64,000 nucleotides of DNA from Mayamaea pseudoterrestris (taxonomy: Eukaryota; Bacillariophyta; Bacillariophyceae; Sellaphorales; Sellaphoraceae), in NCBI GenBank assembly GCA_027923505.1, contig BROI01000020.1, positions 609,253-673,252 on the forward strand. Reading direction: 5' to 3'. How positions within the stretch are numbered: the stretch's first letter is position 1; each line of letters opens with the position of its first letter. The position numbers were made by a program, and so were the translations under genes. Positions 11,474-31,469 of the stretch are shown piece after piece. The notes below the pieces were generated by a model, which saw only the letters and a program-made list of their open reading frames with translations, was not told the DNA's origin and ran no database searches.

Positions 11474-11896
11474 TTCGATTCCCAAGAAGAATACCCGACG
11501 ATTAGTTCAATTGGATGCTTTTTCAAACTATTCGAGTGTCCACTTGTTGCTTTGGGAAGCAAAACGGCCTCATCCATCTTCACGGATCCGAGGCGTTGAA
11601 AAATGCGATGCGGCTTGCTTGTCGATCGAGCAAGCATGCCCTGTCACATACGGTGCCCTTGCGAGCCAGTCCTGTTGTATCCGTTGAACGTTCGAATCAG
11701 AATTTCTTCGACCGAAGAATGACGAGCGAACGGCCAATGAGCGTGTCGTATCGTTACAAGATTAGTCATTGTGACAACCTCGCGGAGTAATCACAATGAC
11801 CCAGTCAATTTTGTGATCGTGTCAAAATCGATCGACTGACTGCTCTCGACGATCAATCGATCGATCCGACACCAGTCGACAATTCCTACGGCAAGC
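11474..11896. other. Divergent intergenic region before sulfatase 1
   Basis: About 420 bp shared by the coiled-coil gene and sulfatase 1. It contains GTCAAAATCGATCGACTGAC at 11820-11839, a TGACC/AATGACC pair around 11767-11800 and clustered GATCGATC palindromes (11826-11868). No gene seen. Confidence 0.4.
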
Positions 11897-14351
11897 ATGA
11901 AACATGCTGTGCTGCGGCTGGTCCTGCTGCTTTGTTCCGGGGCAACTTTACTTGCTGATGCAGCTCGAGATCCAAGAAAGCAGTCGGATGCAGTCGATGA
12001 CGAGTCGGAAGTGCGAGTCGTTCCAAGCAGAAGCGCAATATTGACGACACAACGCTCCTCGTCGCTAGCAACTGACGATGGCGTTCATAATGGTCAATCG
12101 GCAGACGTATTGCCGTCATCGCAGATGCCTTCCAAGTTATCTGATCCATTGTCTGATGAGCAGACTCGAATTATGCGGCAAAAAGTGAAGACACTGCCCG
12201 ACGACAAGAAGCTTAATATTCTCATCATTACGATGGATCAGCTACGATATGACTACTTGCAGTTCATTCAAGAAAGTATGCCGATATATAAAGACAAACT
12301 GAAGGTGAAGACTCCCAATATTGATCGCCTCGCCAAGGAAGGGGTTTGGTTTCGAAATGCCTACGCCCAATTCTCCAGCTGCTCGCCAGCCCGAGCAACC
12401 CTACGGACCGGATGCACCATTGAACGACACGGAATTGACGGCAATCAAATGCTTCCAAACTATATGAATGATCCGCTGGCCAAGCGCAAAGTTGACTCCG
12501 CTCGCACATATGACCAGCTGCTTTTCGAGCAAGGATATCAAGCGGAGAGTTACGGCAAGTTTCACCTTCCTGAACGATGGTACAGAAACACCAACGACAC
12601 CCAAAATGCCATTATGTACAACTCGTATGATCTGGAAATGACGACGCCAATCTTTGTGGCCGAAACACGCAGTGTTGACGGGTATCGCAGTCAGGTTGAG
12701 TATTGGATTGCTCAAGACAATATCACACAAAGCCGCCAACCAGGCATGCAGAGAAACCCTCGATCCAAAAACTTGTACACACCATTAAAAATGGATCCAC
12801 GCTATGGTCAGCCATATAGGAAAGCGACATCCAACGCTAACGTTTATGGCGTTGACTCTTTGCCAGCATTATACTCGCAAGCAACCTACACTGGGCTGCA
12901 AGGGCAGCTGGCCATGCAGAGACTGGCGCAGCAACCAAAGCCGTGGATCTTAACTGTTTCTTTCGAGCCTCCACGTAAGTGATTATCGGGTGTCGTCTTG
13001 CGTGTATGCAAAGTGGTGAGTGTCTCACGACCTTCCGCCTCCATTGCTCACGTCGTCAGACCCTCCAAGGGTTGCGAGCGAAGAGTATGCCAGATACTAC
13101 CTTGAAAATAAGGAACATATCCTTATTCCGCCAAACATTAACAACAAGTTTGACAATCCATGGTACCGAAAACAGCAAGAACAGTCTATGGCAGTGGGAT
13201 TTCGAAACCCAAAACGACTCCAGGAGGCGTCTGCCATCTACATGGGAATGATTGAGCAAGTGGACAACTGGATTGGCGTCTTGTTGGATGAGCTGGAAAC
13301 TCAGGGTGTGGCCAATAATACACTCGTCGCCTTTACATCGGATCATGGCGAATTTCTGGGCGCTCACGGGTAAGTCACATATATGTCGACCGCAGACGAT
13401 TGTGTTGCTTCTGCTAATTCCCGCCTTGTGCTGCTCATTTCTAGTATGGGTGGCAAAATGGGACTCATGGAGGAAGCGCTTCGAGTCCCGTTTATAATGA
13501 GACTGCCTGGTAAAATCAAGCAAGGTACAATTGTCGAAAGACCGGTCGGGGCTCATTTAAATCTTGTGGCTACCCTATTGGATTATGCAGGCTTGTCTAG
13601 CATAGACGTGAGTGACGGCACAAGCCTTCGTTCTTTGATAACTGGTAGGAGTTACAATGAGTTTTACGATGACGACTTTTGCGTTTCCGAAGACACGGAA
13701 GTTAGCGTGCTTGGTGAGTTTCCCAATTTTATGATTCGGCAAGGAGACTGGAAGTTGCTAATTGCCAAGAAAGCGGACATCAATTCGCCAGACATGCTGT
13801 TCAATCTTGCGGATGATCCATATGAAATGGATAATTTGCTATCAAGAAGGTTTTTAAGTATGCAGGTGACTGGAAAGGTGGAGCATTTGAAGTGCTTACT
13901 CCTTGAGTGGATGAGCCGCAACGACGGCGGCGCCGCAAAGTACTACTCATCCCCGCGGAACAACCATGGACAAGGTGACGGTGACATGCAAGAAGTGACA
14001 CACCGGCGGTCTTGGAACGAGGTTCGCCAGTGGATCAGTGATTCCAAACTCACGTTCAATCCTCCAGTCCTGGTGGATGGCGTTTGGCGGTCGAATGCAT
14101 TCTTGTACATTGGACGGACAACTGGCGGTACATTGAGAGTCAAAAGCATTTCATTGAGTGGCACTGGTCAGCAATATTTCTCGCTCAGTCAAACGAAAGG
14201 AATTGTCAAGATTAACGGGCATTTGCGCATCCAAGTTTCGTTTGCATCGGAAAGTCCCGTTGACCCGTCCACACTTGACGTAAGTATAGTCGTTAGCAGT
14301 AACGTTTCGACCCGGAAAGTGATAATTGTGCCATGGGCCGATCCAATATAG
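11897..14351 (+). CDS. Secreted sulfatase 1 (formylglycine-dependent), three exons
   Basis: Hydrolyses sulfate esters. Exons 11897..12974, 13060..13369 and 13445..14351 give 764 residues. A hydrophobic signal peptide (residues 1 to about 20) directs it to the secretory route. The sulfatase fold starts near residue 105 with NILIITMDQLRYD (the metal-binding Asp in DQ). The Cys converted to formylglycine is Cys162 in SSCSPARATLRTG. The second metal site is TSDHGEFLGAHG (codon split by intron 2) followed by the Lys in GGKMG and then RVPFIMRLPG. The last 130 residues or so form a beta-rich module (GTGQQYFSLSQTKG...) resembling an ASH/Ig-like fold. Intron 1 splits the His codon of EPPHPP and intron 2 the Gly of AHG. 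It lies in tandem with sulfatase 2, 709 bp upstream of it. The substrate is probably a sulfated polysaccharide or other sulfate ester; this is not resolved. Confidence 0.93.
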
Positions 14352-15060
14352 AATTGTTGCGCGTGTGTAGTAACAAAATTGTCTCTACCGTAGTTCGTTC
14401 GTTCGTTCGTTCTAGATGAACTGGTAGCCAGCGCGAGACTGGAAAAGCTCTTGGCATTTGCTGCATCCGCTACAGTACCTGGTGCAATGTCTCACCTGAT
14501 TCGAATAGAAGCTAAAAAGCGTGCTAATAATCGCTCGTTAGCGGCTTGCACGAGATTGACGCTTACTATACTGGAACAAATTCATGGCAATCCCCGACGA
14601 CTGTGACGACGTCGCATCGCATTCACGCACGCGCGCCATGCGCTTGGGATCACTACGCAAGTGACTTGAGAGCAACATTGGTCTCTGACACTACAGTAGC
14701 GCTAGCGGAAATACCCTTCGCTTGATGAGACTATGTCAATAATGGCAACCTTGCTCGAAGGTCAAATTGGCGAGTCGAATGCGTACGGTAGCTGCCGCGA
14801 TCGCGTCGCAGCGCAACTGAAAATGAGTCATTTGAAAGTCATTTTGACTTGATTCGCGAAGTATTCAAAATGACTGGCGCGAGCGTTTGGATCGTGCCAA
14901 ATTCGACGCGTTTGACCCTTCATCAAACTTGTCCTTCTTCCAAAGCTTGCCGTCCATCAAGGTTGCAGCATTGACTTGATAGACTGCAGCTGCGCTAAAA
15001 GACTCGCCGAGCAACGTTTCGATTGAAAGTTAAAGCAGCTTCTCGTTCGCGCCTCTTGCC
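14352..15060. other. Intergenic DNA between the two sulfatases
   Basis: No gene. It holds a short (GTTC) tetranucleotide run near 14394-14412 and a cluster of three TGA(C/G)TCAT / TCAAAATGAC-type motifs: AAAATGAGTCATTT at 14820-14833, GTCATTTTGAC at 14839-14849 and TCAAAATGACTGG at 14865-14877. They lie about 185-240 bp before the sulfatase 2 start, so they may be its promoter elements. Confidence 0.45.
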
Positions 15061-17525
15061 ATGAGGATTCAATTTTGCATCATTCGTCGCCGCAGTCACT
15101 TGCCGTTGGTTCTTCTGCTGCTCCTTTGCTTGCAGTCCAAGACTGACAGTCTACTTGGTGAGCTGGAGGAGACTCTATATGACAGCAATAATGCGAAATC
15201 AGACAAAGTCTCCGATGAGTTGACCTTGCAGCTGTCGAGGAGACGAGCCATGCAGAACATGCAATTCACGCGGTCCCCAAGTCGCTCCGCAAGAACAAGA
15301 AATCGATTCAATTCCAACATTGACATTGAGACTCCATCATTGTCGGAGATTCCATCCGCTGGACCTTCGTTACCAAGTATCAATCACGTCAATCTACTCG
15401 TCATTACCGCCGATCAATTACGCTACGACGCCCTCGCCTTTATTCAAAATCGCATGAGCATTTACAACTCGTCGCTCAAAGTCAAAACCCCCAACATTGA
15501 TCGTCTGGCGTCGCAGGGAGTACACTTTGAGACGGCCTACTGCCAAACCAGTAGTTGCGCGCCGGCGAGAGCCACGCTGCGGAGCGGCTGCACCATTGAA
15601 CGCACCGGCGTGCAATCGAACGACAATGTTCGCGTCAAGCACTCGCCGGCATCATTCAAGTACGCGCAAGTACTTGCGGACAAGGTGGACGCCGTTCGCA
15701 CCTACGACCAAGTGCTGCACGAGGCAGGCTACCAGGTGGAATCCTACGGCAAGTTTCACCTGCCGCAGCGATGGTACTACGATGTGAACAACACGCAGCG
15801 GGCCATTCGTTACGACACGTACTCGACCGACATGAAAACGCCCACCTTCACCGGCGCCATACTCACGGATCCATTGTACGTGGCGCAGCTGCTGGCGTGG
15901 CGCAACAATACTCCGGCGAAACGATCCGACCACGACGACGGCCAGTTGACGAACCCGCGCTCGGGCTTTCCATACACACCCATTCGACTGGACCAAAACT
16001 ATGGCAATCGCAAACCATCTGGACGTGACGACGACAAGGACGACTCCAACTCGTTGGTCATGGGCGTGGACACGTTTCTGCCGCTGAATCAGTCGCTGGC
16101 CGCCTACACTGGCACGCTGGGTTTGCTGGCGCTGCAGCGACTCGCCGCGCAGCGTCAGCAACCATGGGCACTGACGGTGAGCTTTGAGAATCCGCATCCG
16201 CCCTATGTTGTTTCGGAGGCGTACGCGTCGTACTACTTGGAGCGGTCCAAGCAAATATTGGTGCCGCCGAGCAAGTATCAAGTGATTCAAAACAAGTATT
16301 ACGCCAGTATGCAGCGCGCGTCGCGACTCAAGGGATTCACCGACACCAGGGCCGTGCAGGAGTGGACGGCGGTGTACTACGCCATGGTGGAGCAGGTGGA
16401 TGTTTGGGTGGGGCGCATACTGGATGAATTGGAAGCGCAGGGGCTGGCGGAACATACGTTGGTGGTCTTGACGGCGGATCATGGCGAGTTTCTGGGAGCA
16501 CATGGGTACGTTAATTGTAGTGTGTGTGAGTGGGAGCTGATTCTTTGAAAGTTGACTTTGAATCCTTACAATGTCATTTCTCTTCTTACAGACTCCAAGG
16601 AAAGTCCACGTTTTTGGAGGAGGCAACGCGCGTGCCGCTAATCATGCGCCTACCAGGCATCATTACCGAAGGAACCGTTGTTACGCGACCAGTCGCTCAT
16701 TTGGATGTTTACTCGACGATTCTCGACTACTTGGAGCACTCGGAATACGACAGTAGCGACGGCAACAGTCTACGCCCTGCCGTTACCGGAACAAGCCTTC
16801 GGGAATTGTATGAGGATGAGTTTGTCGTAGGCGAGATGGACACGCAAGACGTCGCCGACAAGACAATCAGTGGGTTTCCAAACTTTATGGTGCGACATGG
16901 TGGATGGAAACTGATGATTGCCAAGTTTGTGGAAAGCAAATCGGAAGACCTGCTGTTTAATGTTGCGGAGGATCCGTTTGAAATGAACAATTTGCTGTCG
17001 AAAAGGAAAAGTGACATGGAAGTGATTGGCAAGGCTGAGCATCTCAAGTGTCTACTCCGTGAGTGGATGGCACGTAACGATGGCGGTAACATGGGATACT
17101 ACTCGCGTCCAAAGTATAACGGGAATGAAGGGCAAGGCGACATGGCAGAGATACGTCGGCGACGCTCCTGGGACGCTGTCGATCAGTGGATCAGTGATAC
17201 CAAACTTTTCTTTAACCAACCAGTCTTTAGCGACAACAAGTGGCGGTCGAACGCCTGGCTGTACATTGGACGCACAACTCCAGGTGCACTAACAATTTTT
17301 GGCGTCAATGTGGTGGGTACTGGAAGTCAATTTTTTGAAGTCAGCCAAACGAGTGGCAGGATCCGCCGCAATGGCTACATGCGTATCAAGATTTCTTTCG
17401 TCGCCGACGATCCTGTCAACTCCGACATGATTGGTGCTAGCATAGTTGTGGAGAGTAGCGCATACAGAAAGAGAATTGTCCGCATCGTTCCTTGGAATTG
17501 GCCAGGCAATATGCCCAATCCATAG
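15061..17525 (+). CDS. Secreted sulfatase 2, tandem paralogue, two exons
   Basis: Exons 15061..16505 and 16592..17525 give 792 residues. The layout matches sulfatase 1: signal peptide (LPLVLLLLLCLQSK, about residues 15-28), first metal site NLLVITADQLRYD, formylglycine Cys166 in SSCAPARATLRSG, second site TADHGEFLGAHG followed by the Lys of GKSTFLEEATRVP, and the same C-terminal beta module (GTGSQFFEVSQTSG). The single intron splits the same Gly codon in AHG as intron 2 of sulfatase 1. The EP/NPHPP intron of the paralogue is absent here. Exon 1 is visibly more GC-rich at third positions than sulfatase 1. The pair arose by tandem duplication and is probably both extracellular or lysosome-like; substrate specificity could differ because an Asp/Lys-rich loop near residues 285-335 is unique to this copy. 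Confidence 0.93.
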
Positions 17526-19983: not shown

Positions 19984-22953
19984 CTAAAAGTCCAAAGGCT
20001 CTTGATAACGCCTCGACGACTGTAACGGAGTCTCGTTTCCGTCTGCATCGATCTCATCAAGCTCCTCGTCCCAATCACCGGGCTCGTCGTGGACAGTAAT
20101 CCATCGTAGACAATTCTGCTTCGTCCCATGTATCGCCATTGTAAACTCGTCTTTAGCGTCCTCCTCCGAGCTCGTTGATCGAACTGACCTATCGTCGTCA
20201 TCGTCGCTTAGCCGCTTCACAGGAGAGACAACATACGAAGCCTTGTCTTGAAACGTGTCCTGGTCCGTCACGCCGTACAAACCTAGCGCGCGGCCACGAG
20301 CCAGTCGTCGCTGCAACGACTTTGGCAGGCTACGTGGGTCGGTATCGACAAACACAAACAATGGATGTTTGGACATGCGACATTGCTCCAAGTGCTCACG
20401 CAACCACGCCATTTGAGGTGAATCTCTGCCGAATGCTTCCTCGCTAGATGTTAACGCAATGCACTGAATGCCCAAGATCCAAAACGAAAAGAACGCAGAC
20501 CCGTCATGACATACTACTGGAATCGTTTCGCTAATCCGGGACAAGAGCTTGCGACACTTTTCATCAAGGTAGCCAGCGGCAACGCAAAGCTTGGGTCGCT
20601 TTCGGTTCACTGCAGAAATAGACTTCTTGAGCAGTTTGATCCACTCCTTTCGCTGCTCTTCCAAGCATGATTCGTTCAATTGTCTTACGAACAATGGATT
20701 CGTCATGTGCACAATACGAGTCGCTCCCAAATCGACGGGCTTACCGTGTGGATCATTTACGGTTGCTCGCGGCGCCTTGCCTTGATCATCCGTCATTTGC
20801 GTCAAACCGACAAAGTCGCGCGAAATAGGACGAACTCTGTCAAGCCGACACAGATATTGATCTTCAAAAAACCGGGCATACAATCTAGGCTCTCGTAACA
20901 GTTTCATGCGCTCCAGTATGTGCATCACTGCAGCTCGATCGTCAGGGTTGAGTCGCATCATGTCGTGACTAGAGCCATCGCCGGGTGGATGCTCGTCGCA
21001 TACCTCCAAACTGAGAGAATCCTCATGCGCCAGCTCGGCAACGGCGCGAATGCACAAGTCGCGAAGAGATGGTACTGGCGTTACATGCAAGGCTCGAGGA
21101 AGCTCCTTGCGGACCGACTTGAAGTATGGATGATTACGAATCTCGTCGTAGCCGCCTGGTTTGGCTTGCATACTTCGCTTGCCGTCGCTTGATACACAAA
21201 GACTGAAAGCATCGGCTCCGATTCGTTTGGTAGGATCAAGCTGCAGTAGCTTTTGAATCAAGTCCCAAGCATTGTCATCGACAATTCCTGGCGCTCGTAC
21301 CAAGTTGCACCGCTTAATTTTCAAAAACGCCAGATATGGTGATGGACACCAAAAGGGAGTGCGGCCCGCCTGCAAAATATACAAGACACATCCAAGCGCC
21401 CACAAGTCACTCGTGTGCAGTGCTCCAACCTCATCAGCGCCACTCTTTTGCTCGTCACCCTTGCCTTCGACTGACTCTGGACTCATAAAGTCCGGCGTTC
21501 CAACAAACTCGGGTCCATTCAAGTCGGTTTCAATCAAGTCCTTGGCCGTTCCAAAATCAAGGAGGACAATGTGACCGTGCCGATTCAGCATGACTGTGCG
21601 AAACAAGGAGAAAGCAATGTGTGAGTACAACATTGGCTGCACTGTCGCTCTCGCATTATATAACGTGAGAAAACAAATAGCGCCACTATCAATATACTCA
21701 CTATTCTCCGGCTTGATATCTCGGTGCACAATGCCGCGCGAGTGAATAAACTCCAGCGCCGCCACGAGCTCGTACATCCATATTTTGGTTTGCGACGGAT
21801 GCGCGCCCACCATGAACCGCGTAATGGTCGGTTGCTGCGCATGCTGCTGCTCGTCATTCTTGGCGTTCCATGCGGCAATGCGAAGCTCGCTCCACAAGTC
21901 GCCCCATTGATGGTGCAGCTCCATGAGGTAGTAGAGGCTATTGTAGTCTTGAAAGGTGGCGTACATTTGAATGACAAAGCGACGCCCCGCGTCAAACTGA
22001 TTGTTTTCATCGCCATGATTGATAGTCAATCGCTCCATGAGTACTCTTCGCTCCATTTGAATCTCGTTCCAAACGTTTGGGTGCTGTCGCTTGGCCAGGT
22101 CGGCCGCCTGCTGCTTGGAAATTTGCTTGAGGGCAAACTGTTTGCCCGTCGTCTTGTGCGTCACCAAGTACACTTCGGTAAAGTTGCCGCTTCCGAGTGA
22201 CACGTTGGGGTCTTTGATAAAGTCCTTGATGGAGAGCGACGCGTAATTGACAGTTCTCGAATTATTGTCAGCAGCTGGTCTCGCCACCAAGGCAGCCTCC
22301 AAGCAATGGTTCCAGAGCGACTCGAAGGCCTTGCGCTGGCCGTCAACGGAAGAAGGAGCAGCAGCAGTAGTCGCTTCCAAAGTAGTATCTGCTACCGTAG
22401 CATCACCTTGACGTTCAGTTACTGCATTCGCATCACTTGCTGCTGCTGCATCCGCAACAGAATCCATTTGCTCCATAGCGGATTGAATCACTTGTTTGGC
22501 CACTTCGTAATCATGGAGCGCCAAAAGCGCACTCACCAAGCGAAAGGACGCCTTGAGATTGTGCGGATCCAAATGTAGCGCCCGCTGCGCGTTACTCTTG
22601 GCCTCGTCGTATTCCTGCATTTTGGCGTGGCAGGCGGATCGGTTGCAGTAATTGACAATGAGGAGTGACTGAATTTGCGACTGCTGCGATGGATGCGCTG
22701 AATGTTCCGTCTGCTGCTGCTGCGCGCTGCCGTTTGGCATTGTCTCCTCACTGTCATGCTCGACAGTGTTATTCGTTTCATTCAGTAACGCTTGCTCCAA
22801 TGAATGAATCGCCAGCGAGTACAGTTGCACCGCCGTTTCGTAGCGTTGCAGTCGAAACTGATGGTTTCCCTGCTGCCGCCACTCGTCCACTTGCTCGAGA
22901 AGCGAAAGAGAGTTTTCATTGTCGTTTGATGTAAGCGTCTCCGCGTCGTTCAT
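19984..22953 (-). CDS. TPR - PDK1-like protein kinase - degenerate CPPED1-type phosphoesterase fusion
   Basis: Spliced complement(19984..21593, 21702..22953) gives 953 residues; an upstream in-frame ATG at 23118 is less likely. TPR helices occupy about residues 22-160. The Ser/Thr kinase domain runs from about 245 to 575: glycine loop LGSGNFTEV (253-261), Lys276 in FALK, HRDIKPEN at 410-417, DFG at 430-432, GTPDFMSPE at 449-457. The DFGTAKDL and FVGTPDFMSPE pattern and small-lobe style resemble PDK1 of the AGC group. Residues from about 675 onward align by pattern with the metallophosphoesterase CPPED1 (VGLTQMTDDQGK; RPKLCVAAG; FFSFWILGIQCIAL; MAWLREHL), but the usual metal ligands (GD, GNHD, GHxH) are missing. 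PDK1 normally carries a PH domain here. The 108-bp intron has no stop and is a multiple of 3. Inferred role: a signalling kinase with a TPR docking part and a non-catalytic phosphoesterase-derived regulatory domain. Confidence 0.9.
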   Translation of the reverse strand: MNDAETLTSNDNENSLSLLEQVDEWRQQGNHQFRLQRYETAVQLYSLAIHSLEQALLNETNNTVEHDSEETMPNGSAQQQQTEHSAHPSQQSQIQSLLIVNYCNRSACHAKMQEYDEAKSNAQRALHLDPHNLKASFRLVSALLALHDYEVAKQVIQSAMEQMDSVADAAAASDANAVTERQGDATVADTTLEATTAAAPSSVDGQRKAFESLWNHCLEAALVARPAADNNSRTVNYASLSIKDFIKDPNVSLGSGNFTEVYLVTHKTTGKQFALKQISKQQAADLAKRQHPNVWNEIQMERRVLMERLTINHGDENNQFDAGRRFVIQMYATFQDYNSLYYLMELHHQWGDLWSELRIAAWNAKNDEQQHAQQPTITRFMVGAHPSQTKIWMYELVAALEFIHSRGIVHRDIKPENSEYIDSGAICFLTLYNARATVQPMLYSHIAFSLFRTVMLNRHGHIVLLDFGTAKDLIETDLNGPEFVGTPDFMSPESVEGKGDEQKSGADEVGALHTSDLWALGCVLYILQAGRTPFWCPSPYLAFLKIKRCNLVRAPGIVDDNAWDLIQKLLQLDPTKRIGADAFSLCVSSDGKRSMQAKPGGYDEIRNHPYFKSVRKELPRALHVTPVPSLRDLCIRAVAELAHEDSLSLEVCDEHPPGDGSSHDMMRLNPDDRAAVMHILERMKLLREPRLYARFFEDQYLCRLDRVRPISRDFVGLTQMTDDQGKAPRATVNDPHGKPVDLGATRIVHMTNPLFVRQLNESCLEEQRKEWIKLLKKSISAVNRKRPKLCVAAGYLDEKCRKLLSRISETIPVVCHDGSAFFSFWILGIQCIALTSSEEAFGRDSPQMAWLREHLEQCRMSKHPLFVFVDTDPRSLPKSLQRRLARGRALGLYGVTDQDTFQDKASYVVSPVKRLSDDDDDRSVRSTSSEEDAKDEFTMAIHGTKQNCLRWITVHDEPGDWDEELDEIDADGNETPLQSSRRYQEPLDF

Positions 22954-23239
22954 GTTATTGTTACGTCGCGCACGAGTTAGCTTGTATCTTACAGTTGATC
23001 CCGAAAGGAAAGGGTGCCGAGATGCTTGCTTTTGCGTGGTGATTGTCCTGCTTGCAAAATGTCGCATGAGAACCGATACGACTGATTTTGCGTCAGAAAT
23101 GACTCCTCTTGCAGTCATTTCAGCTTCTTTTCACGACGTGAATCACATCCACAAAAGCTTGCTCGTCGCCATGATAAGTTGTTGATCCCACGAAGCCTGC
23201 ACAAGCCGAGAGAGAGCTAGCATAATACATATATAAATC

Positions 23240-24958
23240 ATGGCATTAACGGAACGAAGGAGCAGCGTCGTTCGATCCATTGACGAGGACGACGGAATCA
23301 TTTTGCTCGACGACTCGTTCATTCGTAACGATTTCAGCAGTAGAAGTTGGAACGATGAGCCAGCGGGAGAGTTTATCAATTTAAAGCAAAGTAGTCAGAA
23401 GAGACGGAAACAAGTGATTAAAAGCAGCAAGTCGAGCAGCAGCGACGGGGCGACTTGTCGAGACGGCATGATCATTTGGTCCATTGTTTTCATATTAGCT
23501 GGATTCGTCGTTGGAATTCTAATGGAGCGGCGCAATCCAAACATTTTGATCAAAACCATGGTCAAGGATACTACGAGTCAAGTAACTGGAGGAGGCATGA
23601 CGAGTGAAAGCAGTAATGGCGTTCCGCGTAAGTATTATGTTGAAGCGAGAGAAACAGAATTTGTGTTTCACTATTGAAACATGCTTGGATCTCCTGCTTA
23701 TCATTCATTATGCGATTCAATTGTCGCAGAAATTATTGCGACCGATGCACCGTATCCGGCTCCTATTGCGCCTCCTCCTGCTCCCGTTACTGTTGCTTTG
23801 CCGGCTCTTGAACCGGCAGTCGTTGCACCTCCAGTTTCGCAACCAGCTATCGAGACTGATACAGCAACAATAGCATTATCCGCCTCGACGCGCTGGCCGC
23901 AGCGCGACTCTCGCATTCGCGACGCCATGACGCAAGGAACCCGCATTGCGTCCAACCAACATGAAGCCTTTGCAGCTGGTCCAAACGATCCCTACTACAC
24001 GTTTAACAACGTGCGATACGAGGCTCCGCCACCGAAACTTGCGACTGTTGTCACGGCAATGTACGACTTGGCGAGCAACAGCAAGCACACGCGACAAGAG
24101 TATGAAACGTGGCTTGACCTGCTGCTCGTGTGCACCAGTCCCATGGTCATTTTCGTGGACGAGCAATACTTGGAATACGTGAAGGAGCGTCGCCAACACG
24201 CGCCGACTCTAGTGGCATTACTTTCGTTTGACGCCATCACCATGGCGAGTACATTCTCCGACGATTTTTGGAAGAACGAGGTGCTGCCGCTTGACGGTGA
24301 TCCAGCCACGGCGTTGATTGACGTTTACAAGATTCGCAACGAGCAAATGGTGCGTGCGTCGGGAGCTAAAGTAGTTGTTTAGGTCGATGAATGCAGGAGG
24401 AGGCGACTCACATACTTCTTCACTTGCGCACAGATTTTCATGCACGAGGTGGCGCTTTACAATCCATTTGAAACGGAACTATTCTTCTGGTGCGACGCTT
24501 CCTACTTCCGCCACAATCACTGGCATTCACGAAACATTCCGGTGATTCGCAACAACATTACGGCGCACAACGTTCCATTACATCAAGGACTCTTTCTCAA
24601 GCCGTATCCCGAGCACAATCAACTTGGCGGAGGCCTCTGGGGTGCGCACGGCAAGGCCATGCCTGACTTGTACGAAGCTTACTTTGAAACGTTTTGGTAC
24701 ATGGCAAAGCACAAGCTACCATTCATTGGCAACGACGACAAAATCATGACGTTCATGTGCCAGAGCTTTCCAGATCTTTGCAAAGTAGTTGTTGGTAATG
24801 GCGACTTGAGGCTGTTTGGACATAACTTTTTGCGGTCTGTCACACTTCCCTTTGACCCTGCACCAGTGTCGCTGCAAGTGGAGGGTCAAGCGCTCGTGGA
24901 ACTGCCAGTCGATTTTCCGACGTTGACGAATGTCATTACGTCGAGCGAGGCAGTGTGA
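23240..24958 (+). CDS. Type II membrane HtrL/YibB-like protein (putative glycosyltransferase)
   Basis: Exons 23240..23627, 23730..24370 and 24434..24958 give 517 residues with matching phases. A cytosolic N-terminus of about 75 residues is followed by one signal-anchor helix (MIIWSIVFILAGFVVGIL, about residues 77-94) and a Pro/Ala-rich stem, typical of Golgi enzymes. The lumenal domain matches the HtrL/YibB pattern: VVTAMYDLASNSKHTRQEYE, CTSPMVIFVDEQYLEYVKERR, NPFETELFFWCDASYFR, then GGGLWGAHGKAMPDLYEAYF and IGNDDKIMTFMCQSFPDL. Family members are found in bacterial LPS loci and in algal and animal genomes; a sugar-transfer role is likely, but donor and acceptor are unknown. The FWCDASYFR site takes the place of the usual WIDFG-like acid motif. 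Confidence 0.82.
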
Positions 24959-29731: not shown

Positions 29732-29984
29732 AATGATTGATTTGTAAAACTTGTGACTGGATGTATACAGTAAGTAGTGAGTTGTGGAGGTGCATGACGA
29801 GCGACAGCAGCTCATGGTTGATGGAATCGAAACGTGACGGATGACTCGATCCGACACGACTGAGTCGTTCTTTTCATAACTACGTCATAACCGCTCCGAC
29901 AAAGCGTGACTGCGACCTCGACTCGTGTCTTGGCGCAACGCCTCCCTCCATTTCGTTTCCCTTGAAGCTTTCACATTGATCGTC
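29732..29984. promoter_or_regulatory. Putative bidirectional promoter, fibrillin / cysteine desulfurase
   Basis: Only 253 bp separate two divergent ATGs. The stretch contains TACGTCAT at 29881-29888 (a CRE-type half site) and GACTGAGTC near 29859-29867 (AP-1-like palindrome). Function is inferred from position only. Confidence 0.45.
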
Positions 29985-31469
29985 ATGAACTACTACAATT
30001 ACAGCAGCAGCAGCGCTAGCAGCAACCAGCAGAGCCTCCTGATTGTCTCTGGCATTAGCTTCGTCCTTGGCGCCTGCAGCATTTACTTGGCGTCGCTGGC
30101 TCACGTCAAGCAGCAGCAGCAGCAGCAGCAGCAACTATATGACAACCACGACTTGGAACTGCGAGAAGATAAAGACAGCAGCAACGATGCTAATTCCATC
30201 ATTTACATGGACTACAATGGAACGACTCCAGTGACTCCCAGTGTACTGCAGGCCATGACTCCGTACTTTACCAAGCACTACGGCAATCCAAGCAGTAGTC
30301 ACGTCTTGGCGACTGCACCAAAACAGGCCATGTCCAAGGCGCGCTTACAAATTTTGACGCATCTACTTGGTGTGAGCAACGAGGCAGCTGAGTCCATGGA
30401 GTCATCCATTGTGTTCACCTCGTGCGGCACCGAGTCGGACAATCTTGCCATTCAGCTCGCGCTGCAGCTGCATCACGCCAAGCGAAGCAGGGAGGCAAAC
30501 GAGTCGCAGCAACAGGACAACAATGACAACGAAAATACATCATTTCTTCCACACATTGTCACTACCAACGTGGAGCATCCCGCCGTCGAACAATACTTGC
30601 AGCACTTGGAGCGCCGCCACGAATGCATCGTCTCGTACGTGCCAGTGCAATCAAACGGTTGCGTCCGCGCCAGCGACGTGATTGCTGCCATGACGCCTCG
30701 CACCATTCTAGTCACTCTCATGCACGCCAACAACGAGTCGGGGGCGCTGCAGCCAGTGGCGGAACTTTGCGACTATATACGCAAAAACCAGCTACCCATC
30801 TTGGTGCATTCCGATGCGGCCCAGTCGGCGGCTAAAGTTTCCGTCAAACTACGCGACCTCAAGCAGCCGCACATGGTCAGTCTGGTCGGACACAAGCTGG
30901 GAGCGCCAAAGGGAGTGGCGTGCTTGTACATGGATGCAGAGTTGGTGGCGGACATTCAAAAGTGCGGCGTGAACAAACATGGTGTTTCTACGATTGGCGG
31001 CGCCCAAGAGTTTGGTCTACGTGCCGGAACACCCAATGTTCCATACATTGTCGGCATGGGCCAGGCAGCCGAGGAGGCGGCGAGTCATTTGCAGCAGCAT
31101 GCCAGTCATTTGGAGCAGCTGCGTAGTCGACTCTTGGCGCAACTGATCAAGCACCTTGGTTCTGACAATGTGCGAGCCAATGGACCCGACGAAGCTTCCT
31201 TGCGACTCCCAAACACGCTGTCGGTTGGTATTCGCAACGTTCACAGTGGCGACTTGCTCCAAGCCATTGGCCACCAGGTCGCGGCATCGGCGGGCGCCAC
31301 TTGTCACTCAACACAAGGCGTCTCCAGCGTGCTGCAAGCCATGCGAGTGCCAATCGAGTTTGCGCGCGGCACCTTGCGACTGTCACTGGGACCGTTTCTG
31401 ACGGAGCGAGACGTTGATCGAGCGGCGGAAATCATTGCGGCGCAAGCCAAGCGACAAATGGAAGACTGA
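29985..31469 (+). CDS. Membrane-anchored selenocysteine lyase / cysteine desulfurase-like PLP enzyme
   Basis: 494 residues from the ATG at 29985. Class-V aminotransferase that removes S or Se from (seleno)cysteine. N-terminal TM helix SLLIVSGISFVLGACSIYLA (about residues 17-36), then a polyQ run and the catalytic domain from about 70: YMDYNGTTPVTP, GNPSSSH, TSCGTESDN, NVEHPAV, HANNESGALQP, HSDAAQSAAKV. The PLP Lys is K304 in SLVGHKLGAPKG. The catalytic Cys is C440 in AGATCHSTQGVSSVL. C-terminus is ARGTLRLSLGPFLTERDV. The ATCHS loop and the VPIEFARGTLRLSLG tail look more like SCLY than IscS or SUFS. It is not obviously plastid-targeted; a helix-anchored desulfurase is unusual. An IscU- or SufS-type role cannot be excluded. 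Confidence 0.9.
   Translation: MNYYNYSSSSASSNQQSLLIVSGISFVLGACSIYLASLAHVKQQQQQQQQLYDNHDLELREDKDSSNDANSIIYMDYNGTTPVTPSVLQAMTPYFTKHYGNPSSSHVLATAPKQAMSKARLQILTHLLGVSNEAAESMESSIVFTSCGTESDNLAIQLALQLHHAKRSREANESQQQDNNDNENTSFLPHIVTTNVEHPAVEQYLQHLERRHECIVSYVPVQSNGCVRASDVIAAMTPRTILVTLMHANNESGALQPVAELCDYIRKNQLPILVHSDAAQSAAKVSVKLRDLKQPHMVSLVGHKLGAPKGVACLYMDAELVADIQKCGVNKHGVSTIGGAQEFGLRAGTPNVPYIVGMGQAAEEAASHLQQHASHLEQLRSRLLAQLIKHLGSDNVRANGPDEASLRLPNTLSVGIRNVHSGDLLQAIGHQVAASAGATCHSTQGVSSVLQAMRVPIEFARGTLRLSLGPFLTERDVDRAAEIIAAQAKRQMED
30111..30134 (+). repeat. CAG repeat (polyQ) in the desulfurase gene
   Basis: Seven CAG codons and one CAA encode eight Gln between the TM anchor and the enzyme domain. Such runs vary in length between alleles. 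Confidence 0.9.

Follow-up and report, generated by a model that had tools for sequence, protein, structure and literature searches.

How is a PDK1-type kinase built, and what might bring it to its substrates, when its chain carries no recognizable PH domain? PDK1 is a master activator of AGC kinases, and the animal protein carries a lipid sensor. This question is raised by a gene of the diatom Mayamaea pseudoterrestris, located on the minus strand at positions 19984-22953 of the 64,000-nucleotide stretch of contig BROI01000020.1 analyzed here (the window). Its product combines tetratricopeptide repeats (TPR), a PDK1-type kinase domain and a C-terminal third that partly resembles the metallophosphoesterase CPPED1. 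We consider it probable that the gene encodes an AGC master kinase of the PDK1 type to which a protein-binding module has been added at each end, the C-terminal one being a catalytically dead domain used for docking or regulation; most likely, a known kinase family has here acquired a new domain architecture.

The open frame on the minus strand runs from 23118 to 19984 and comprises 1044 codons unspliced and 1008 amino acids spliced; all residue numbers refer to the spliced 1008-residue frame opening at the ATG at 23118. An internal in-frame ATG at 22953 is the likelier start, because the 55 codons upstream of it show a non-coding-like codon-position GC content (0.47/0.53/0.40) compared with the following 245 codons (0.60/0.40/0.57), and the 55-codon extension from 23118 looks non-coding. 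The gene as most likely translated (19984..22953, minus strand) extends from the ATG at 22953 to the stop at 19984 and yields 953 amino acids once an intron is removed. This predicted in-frame intron of 108 nucleotides (21594..21701, minus strand) has the form GTGAGT...ACAG, with GT-AG ends. Its removal yields KPENIMLNRHGHIVLLDFG, the splice joins HRDIKPEN to IMLNRHGHIVLLDFGTAKD, and the alignment with the best PDK1 chain among PDB sequences has no gap over the predicted exon junction. A preliminary description of this DNA had placed the start at 22953, in agreement with the GC content, and had read a single gene frame, which we confirm except that the intron had been missed. A divergent frame starts at 23240 on the plus strand, which leaves about 120 bp between it and the ATG at 23118; the intergenic region is short and the promoter may be shared.

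The frame continues through the C-terminal third, where codon-position GC (0.56/0.42/0.56) is coding-like. Internal ATGs are present, and the locus could in principle comprise two genes, with the C-terminal third transcribed or spliced apart from the kinase. We regard this as highly improbable, given a single frame of 1008 spliced codons with no stop between the kinase and the C-terminal domain.

The kinase domain (21106..22227, minus strand, with the intron inside it) is of the AGC class and the PDK1 type: it matches the Pfam family Pkinase at 2e-36, and the spliced kinase matches PDK1 at 2.6e-34. A PDB sequence search with the spliced kinase gave 159 matches at E<=1e-20, the best 60 of which were considered. 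The best 21 of these 60 sequences were PDK1 entries (122.3 to 114.5 bits), one of them, 3nun, being deposited merely as "PkB-like", and the top non-PDK1 sequence, a PKA, scored 100.4 bits (1.2e-27), which puts PDK1 ahead by about 22 bits. The catalytic motifs of the spliced protein are complete and include GSGNF (the Gly loop), FALK (with the Lys), HRDIKPEN, LLDFG and MSPE. The segment TFQD..L, part of the PIF pocket, also aligns with PDK1; judged by eye against the human pocket, the protein appears to have equivalents of the Lys and the Arg, and two pocket Ile appear as Ala. At the position of the PDK1 activation-loop Ser, alignments with PDK1 (GPEFVGT versus ANSFVGT) place a Glu, E501 (21508..21510, minus strand). 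This T-loop Ser is conserved in PDK1 of human, A. thaliana and O. tauri (PMC4143559). E501 would give constitutive activity, keeping the kinase active without T-loop autophosphorylation.

The TPR region (approximately residues 74-225; 22444..22899, minus strand) was identified by Pfam TPR families (TPR_1, 1e-6; TPR_19, 2e-6) and by phmmer matches to STIP1, CHIP, FKBP4 and SGTA; a Gln-rich and acidic loop of about 40 residues separates repeats one and two. The carboxylate clamp of the first TPR domain of STIP1 (Hop) consists of K8, N12, N43, K73 and R77 (Lys, Asn, Asn, Lys, Arg). R81, N85, N159, K189 and R193 of the diatom protein align with these positions, four of the five being identical and one having Arg in place of Lys. 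Binding of the C-terminal tails of Hsp70 or Hsp90 by this region is a fair prediction and not a result; such binding would hold the kinase on these tails. Both the TPR repeats and the PDK1-like kinase had been named in the preliminary description, and the searches bear out both assignments.

Searches of the C-terminal third against Pfam and NCBIfam produced no match at E<=10. Since PH families were included and gave no match, a PH identity of the C-terminus was rejected. All six matches of a PDB sequence search with this third were purple acid phosphatases, not significant (E 0.083-0.094) but from the right superfamily. For an independent test of the CPPED1 relationship, a CPPED1 consensus was written and used to find a plasmid protein 33.2% identical to it over the full length; the two then served to collect bacterial CPPED1-like loci, of which 80 were kept out of 131 confirmed, and the profile was built from those 80 alone. 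With hhalign, the window domain matched this profile over 102 columns (Prob 95.4, E 1.7e-8, score 60.7); the highest-scoring of 200 shuffles reached 24.4 and the reversed sequence 16.9. The hmmsearch result with the same profile was modest (11.0 bits, with E 0.19 for the database size chosen), and at E<=10 none of the controls matched, neither the 1000 shuffles nor the reversed sequence nor the 245 other window frames of at least 80 codons.

Among single proteins, the closest found were L031, from a record labelled as a Chlamydiae metagenome-assembled genome, and L118, which are 64% identical to each other. Smith-Waterman (SW) scores of the window domain were 109 with L031 and 96 with L118, whereas the best of 1000 shuffles reached 59 and 53, respectively. 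That the similarity arose by chance, the C-terminus being an unrelated fold such as a diverged PH domain, would fit the missing Pfam and NCBIfam matches and the low HMMER score, but it is already largely refuted by these SW scores and by the distance between the hhalign score and its shuffles, and we find it hardly credible. Judged from these comparisons, the relationship of the C-terminal third to CPPED1 exceeds chance.

It also appears to be specific. Single-sequence scores above the 99th percentile of shuffles were obtained with 54 of the 80 CPPED1-like proteins versus none of 25 proteins extracted from 30 other PF00149 loci (five loci were dropped, and some of the 25 proteins may be wrong frames). 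The CPPED1-like profile recognized eight of these 25 proteins at E<1e-3. Identity as a generic metallophosphoesterase was disfavoured: the best SW score with any of the 25 proteins was 41, and the highest among 400 shuffles was 47. Within the 243-residue stretch compared, the overlapping pieces 30-110 and 100-165 each matched both L031 and L118 (z 7.7-11.4), and residues 1-60 (z 0.3 and 1.6) and 150-243 (z -0.8) did not. CPPED1-like proteins at E<=1e-30 were found in three of 151 genomes of the phylum of L031 (L031, L118 and L119, the genome of L031 being counted). By eye, L031 and L118 resemble eukaryotic CPPED1, and they were possibly exchanged with hosts. No CPPED1-like relative of the consensus, P0002 or L031 was confirmed in viral contigs. 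On a Parabacteroides distasonis plasmid, a CPPED1-like metallophosphoesterase (L001, 526-1356) lies between SusD-like and SusC-like genes.

The chain behind the kinase has four parts, all on the minus strand. A linker after the kinase (20806..21093) has no Pfam match. It is followed by a segment (20656..20805) containing both TQMTDDQG and IVHMTNPLF, one or the other of which may be the first phosphoesterase strand; the alignments disagree here and the segment is not demonstrably homologous. The core of the degenerate CPPED1-type domain (20335..20655; spliced residues 786-892) is supported by hhalign and by SW alignments to L031 and L118. The C-terminal remainder (19987..20334), the expected site of GHxH and of the last strands, contains an acidic low-complexity stretch and shows no demonstrable similarity to CPPED1.

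The metal motif of CPPED1 is given as D-GD-GNH[E/D]-H-GHxH in PMC8366450. In all four alignments of the window domain GD reads GY, and the Asn of GNHD and both His of GHxH are unmatched. The HD of GNHD is retained, and HHP reads KHP, its first His being replaced by Lys and its second kept. The DPQ motif corresponds to NPL in three of the four alignments, and the fourth places it on the upstream TDDQ; the positions of GHxH and DPQ lie outside the demonstrated core, and their alignment is uncertain. The 308 residues of the C-terminal third contain no GHxH and no GNH at all, and their sole GD and GN sit in the extreme C-terminal tail. Because GD, the Asn of GNH and GHxH are missing, ordinary two-metal catalysis is very unlikely, and the domain should be catalytically dead. 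The loss of the metal site, claimed in the preliminary description, is thus upheld.

Two other readings of this domain have to be weighed. It could still be an enzyme whose active site was rebuilt from the retained HD, the His of KHP and the upstream TDDQ, as would be compatible with the retained residues and with the one alignment in four that puts TDDQ on DPQ. We consider this very improbable, since the residues unmatched in every alignment belong to the published CPPED1 motif (PMC8366450), and since GHxH and GNH are lacking from the whole third. The C-terminal third could also be no more than what is left of a fused CPPED1 gene in decay, a spacer without a function of its own. Deletions relative to the family occur after GY, at GNHD, after HD, before KHP and at GHxH, and the last approximately 80 residues, with their acidic low-complexity stretch, have no detectable homology. 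On the other hand, the frame has stayed open throughout this third and its codon-position GC is coding-like; core motifs, FFSFW and Q.AWL among them, are preserved though the catalytic loops and the metal ligands are gone. A decaying remnant is therefore possible but in our estimate unlikely, and a dead domain retained for docking or regulation is the reading we prefer.

Structure prediction gave partial support to this reading. A second AlphaFold run was made with the 255-residue domain and an alignment of 47 of the 80 CPPED1-like relatives. Its model contained a block with predicted local distance difference test (pLDDT) values of 79-95 at submitted residues 51-150 (mean 61.9 overall; mostly below 50 from submitted residue 187 onward). 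In a Foldseek search of the PDB, the 13 best matches were 12 purple acid phosphatases or phytases and the phosphatase 1t71, with E from 4.1e-3 to 2.4e-2, probability 0.85-0.99 and TM scores of 0.27-0.41.

Several observations weigh against the proposed identity and architecture. The Foldseek search yielded no match at E<=0.001 (best 4.1e-3) and no TM score above 0.41 among the 13 best, and unrelated folds were interspersed from rank 14. Because the supplied alignment consisted of CPPED1 relatives, the structural match is partly circular and may be taken as supportive but not independent. The single-sequence AlphaFold model was poor (mean pLDDT 37.1), and Foldseek returned mostly unrelated folds for it. 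Tested singly, L119 and L001 failed to exceed the best of 1000 shuffles in SW score, and because of this failure the case for CPPED1 is carried by the profile, by L031 and L118, and by those among the 80 proteins that scored better. Homology is demonstrated for about 105 residues only (the alignments run from approximately 786 to 892), and the fold may be truncated, because the first approximately 55 and the last approximately 80 of the 243 residues are not demonstrably homologous. The sequence collections searched for relatives were bacterial, archaeal, viral and plasmid. No relative of the fusion was found in viral and genome contigs by scans for exact short peptide patterns, which would miss distant relatives; tblastn found none in plasmids and, in phages, one match at E 4 that was taken as chance. 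The preliminary description had interpreted the C-terminal third as CPPED1-type: this can be maintained for the approximately 105-residue core, which the CPPED1-like profile matches, but not for the flanks, and no Pfam family, PH included, recognizes the third.

The same description had proposed that the PH domain of PDK1 was replaced in this lineage by a dead phosphatase. This was not borne out in that form: there is no PH match, yet PDK1 proteins without a PH domain have already been published, among them the Toxoplasma ortholog SPARK (PMC11321763). According to that paper, SPARK is thought to need other regulation, perhaps via partner proteins, and the authors describe the regulation of this PH-less Toxoplasma PDK1 as an open inquiry (PMC11321763). 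Among the literature matches listed, as judged by titles and the beginnings of abstracts, no fusion of PDK1 with CPPED1 was found, and a literature search combining PDK1, TPR domain and stramenopiles found nothing. The main text of the P. infestans kinome paper does not contain the terms PDK or PDPK (PMC3019232). Its Table 2 lists TPR in one TKL kinase, PhoD in one STE kinase and PP2C in four kinases, and the available part of that table contains no Metallophos domain (PMC3019232).

The preferred reading suggests how the parts could work together. The sequence shows that part of the C-terminus goes back to a CPPED1-type phosphoesterase whose metal site was lost. The dead phosphatase domain would act as a docking or autoregulatory module: it would keep the ancestral binding of phosphorylated signalling proteins without cleaving them, and would take over from a PH domain the recruitment of the kinase to its substrates. 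The preliminary description had suggested an allosteric or docking role in PI3K/Akt-like signalling, which would be in line with this. A more far-reaching version, which we offer tentatively and think rather doubtful, is a PDK1 that no longer depends on lipid. In it, PIP3 sensing would have given way to a chaperone clamp at one end and, at the other, to a dead domain of the Akt-phosphatase type; this domain would recognise phosphorylated AGC substrates and present them to a kinase constitutively on via its T-loop Glu. The presence of a chaperone-clamp TPR and a pseudophosphatase in a single chain offers a testable hypothesis, namely that docking by a dead enzyme recruits the kinase, replacing lipid. 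If conserved, this layout would characterize one lineage by its own form of a core eukaryotic kinase.

Elsewhere in the window, the plus-strand frames 11840-12982 and 15034-16548 match the Pfam family Sulfatase (2.2e-11 and 1.1e-25, respectively) and are possibly a tandem pair, and the plus-strand frame 29910-31469 (519 amino acids) matches Aminotran_5 at 1.4e-52. An Rfam search of the whole window gave no match.

In comparison with known systems, the window domain resembles CPPED1 (PMC8366450) and the bacterial CPPED1-like proteins L004-L083 and P0002 in a homologous core of about 105 residues; it differs from them by the missing GD, GNH and GHxH, by shortened catalytic loops and by its fusion to a kinase. 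With SPARK it shares the condition of a protist PDK1 without a PH domain, but the SPARK partner SPARKEL is a separate elongin-like protein, whereas the extra modules of the window protein share one chain (PMC11321763). From PDK1 itself, which its kinase domain matches best and with which it shares the catalytic motifs and TFQD..L, the protein is set apart by the absence of a PH match, by the added TPR and CPPED1-type domains and by the replacement of the T-loop Ser by Glu. The TPR region has kept the clamp positions of the carboxylate-clamp co-chaperones STIP1, CHIP and FKBP4, a group that also includes PP5, and differs from these co-chaperones by its attachment to an AGC kinase and by the insertion of about 40 residues between the first two repeats.

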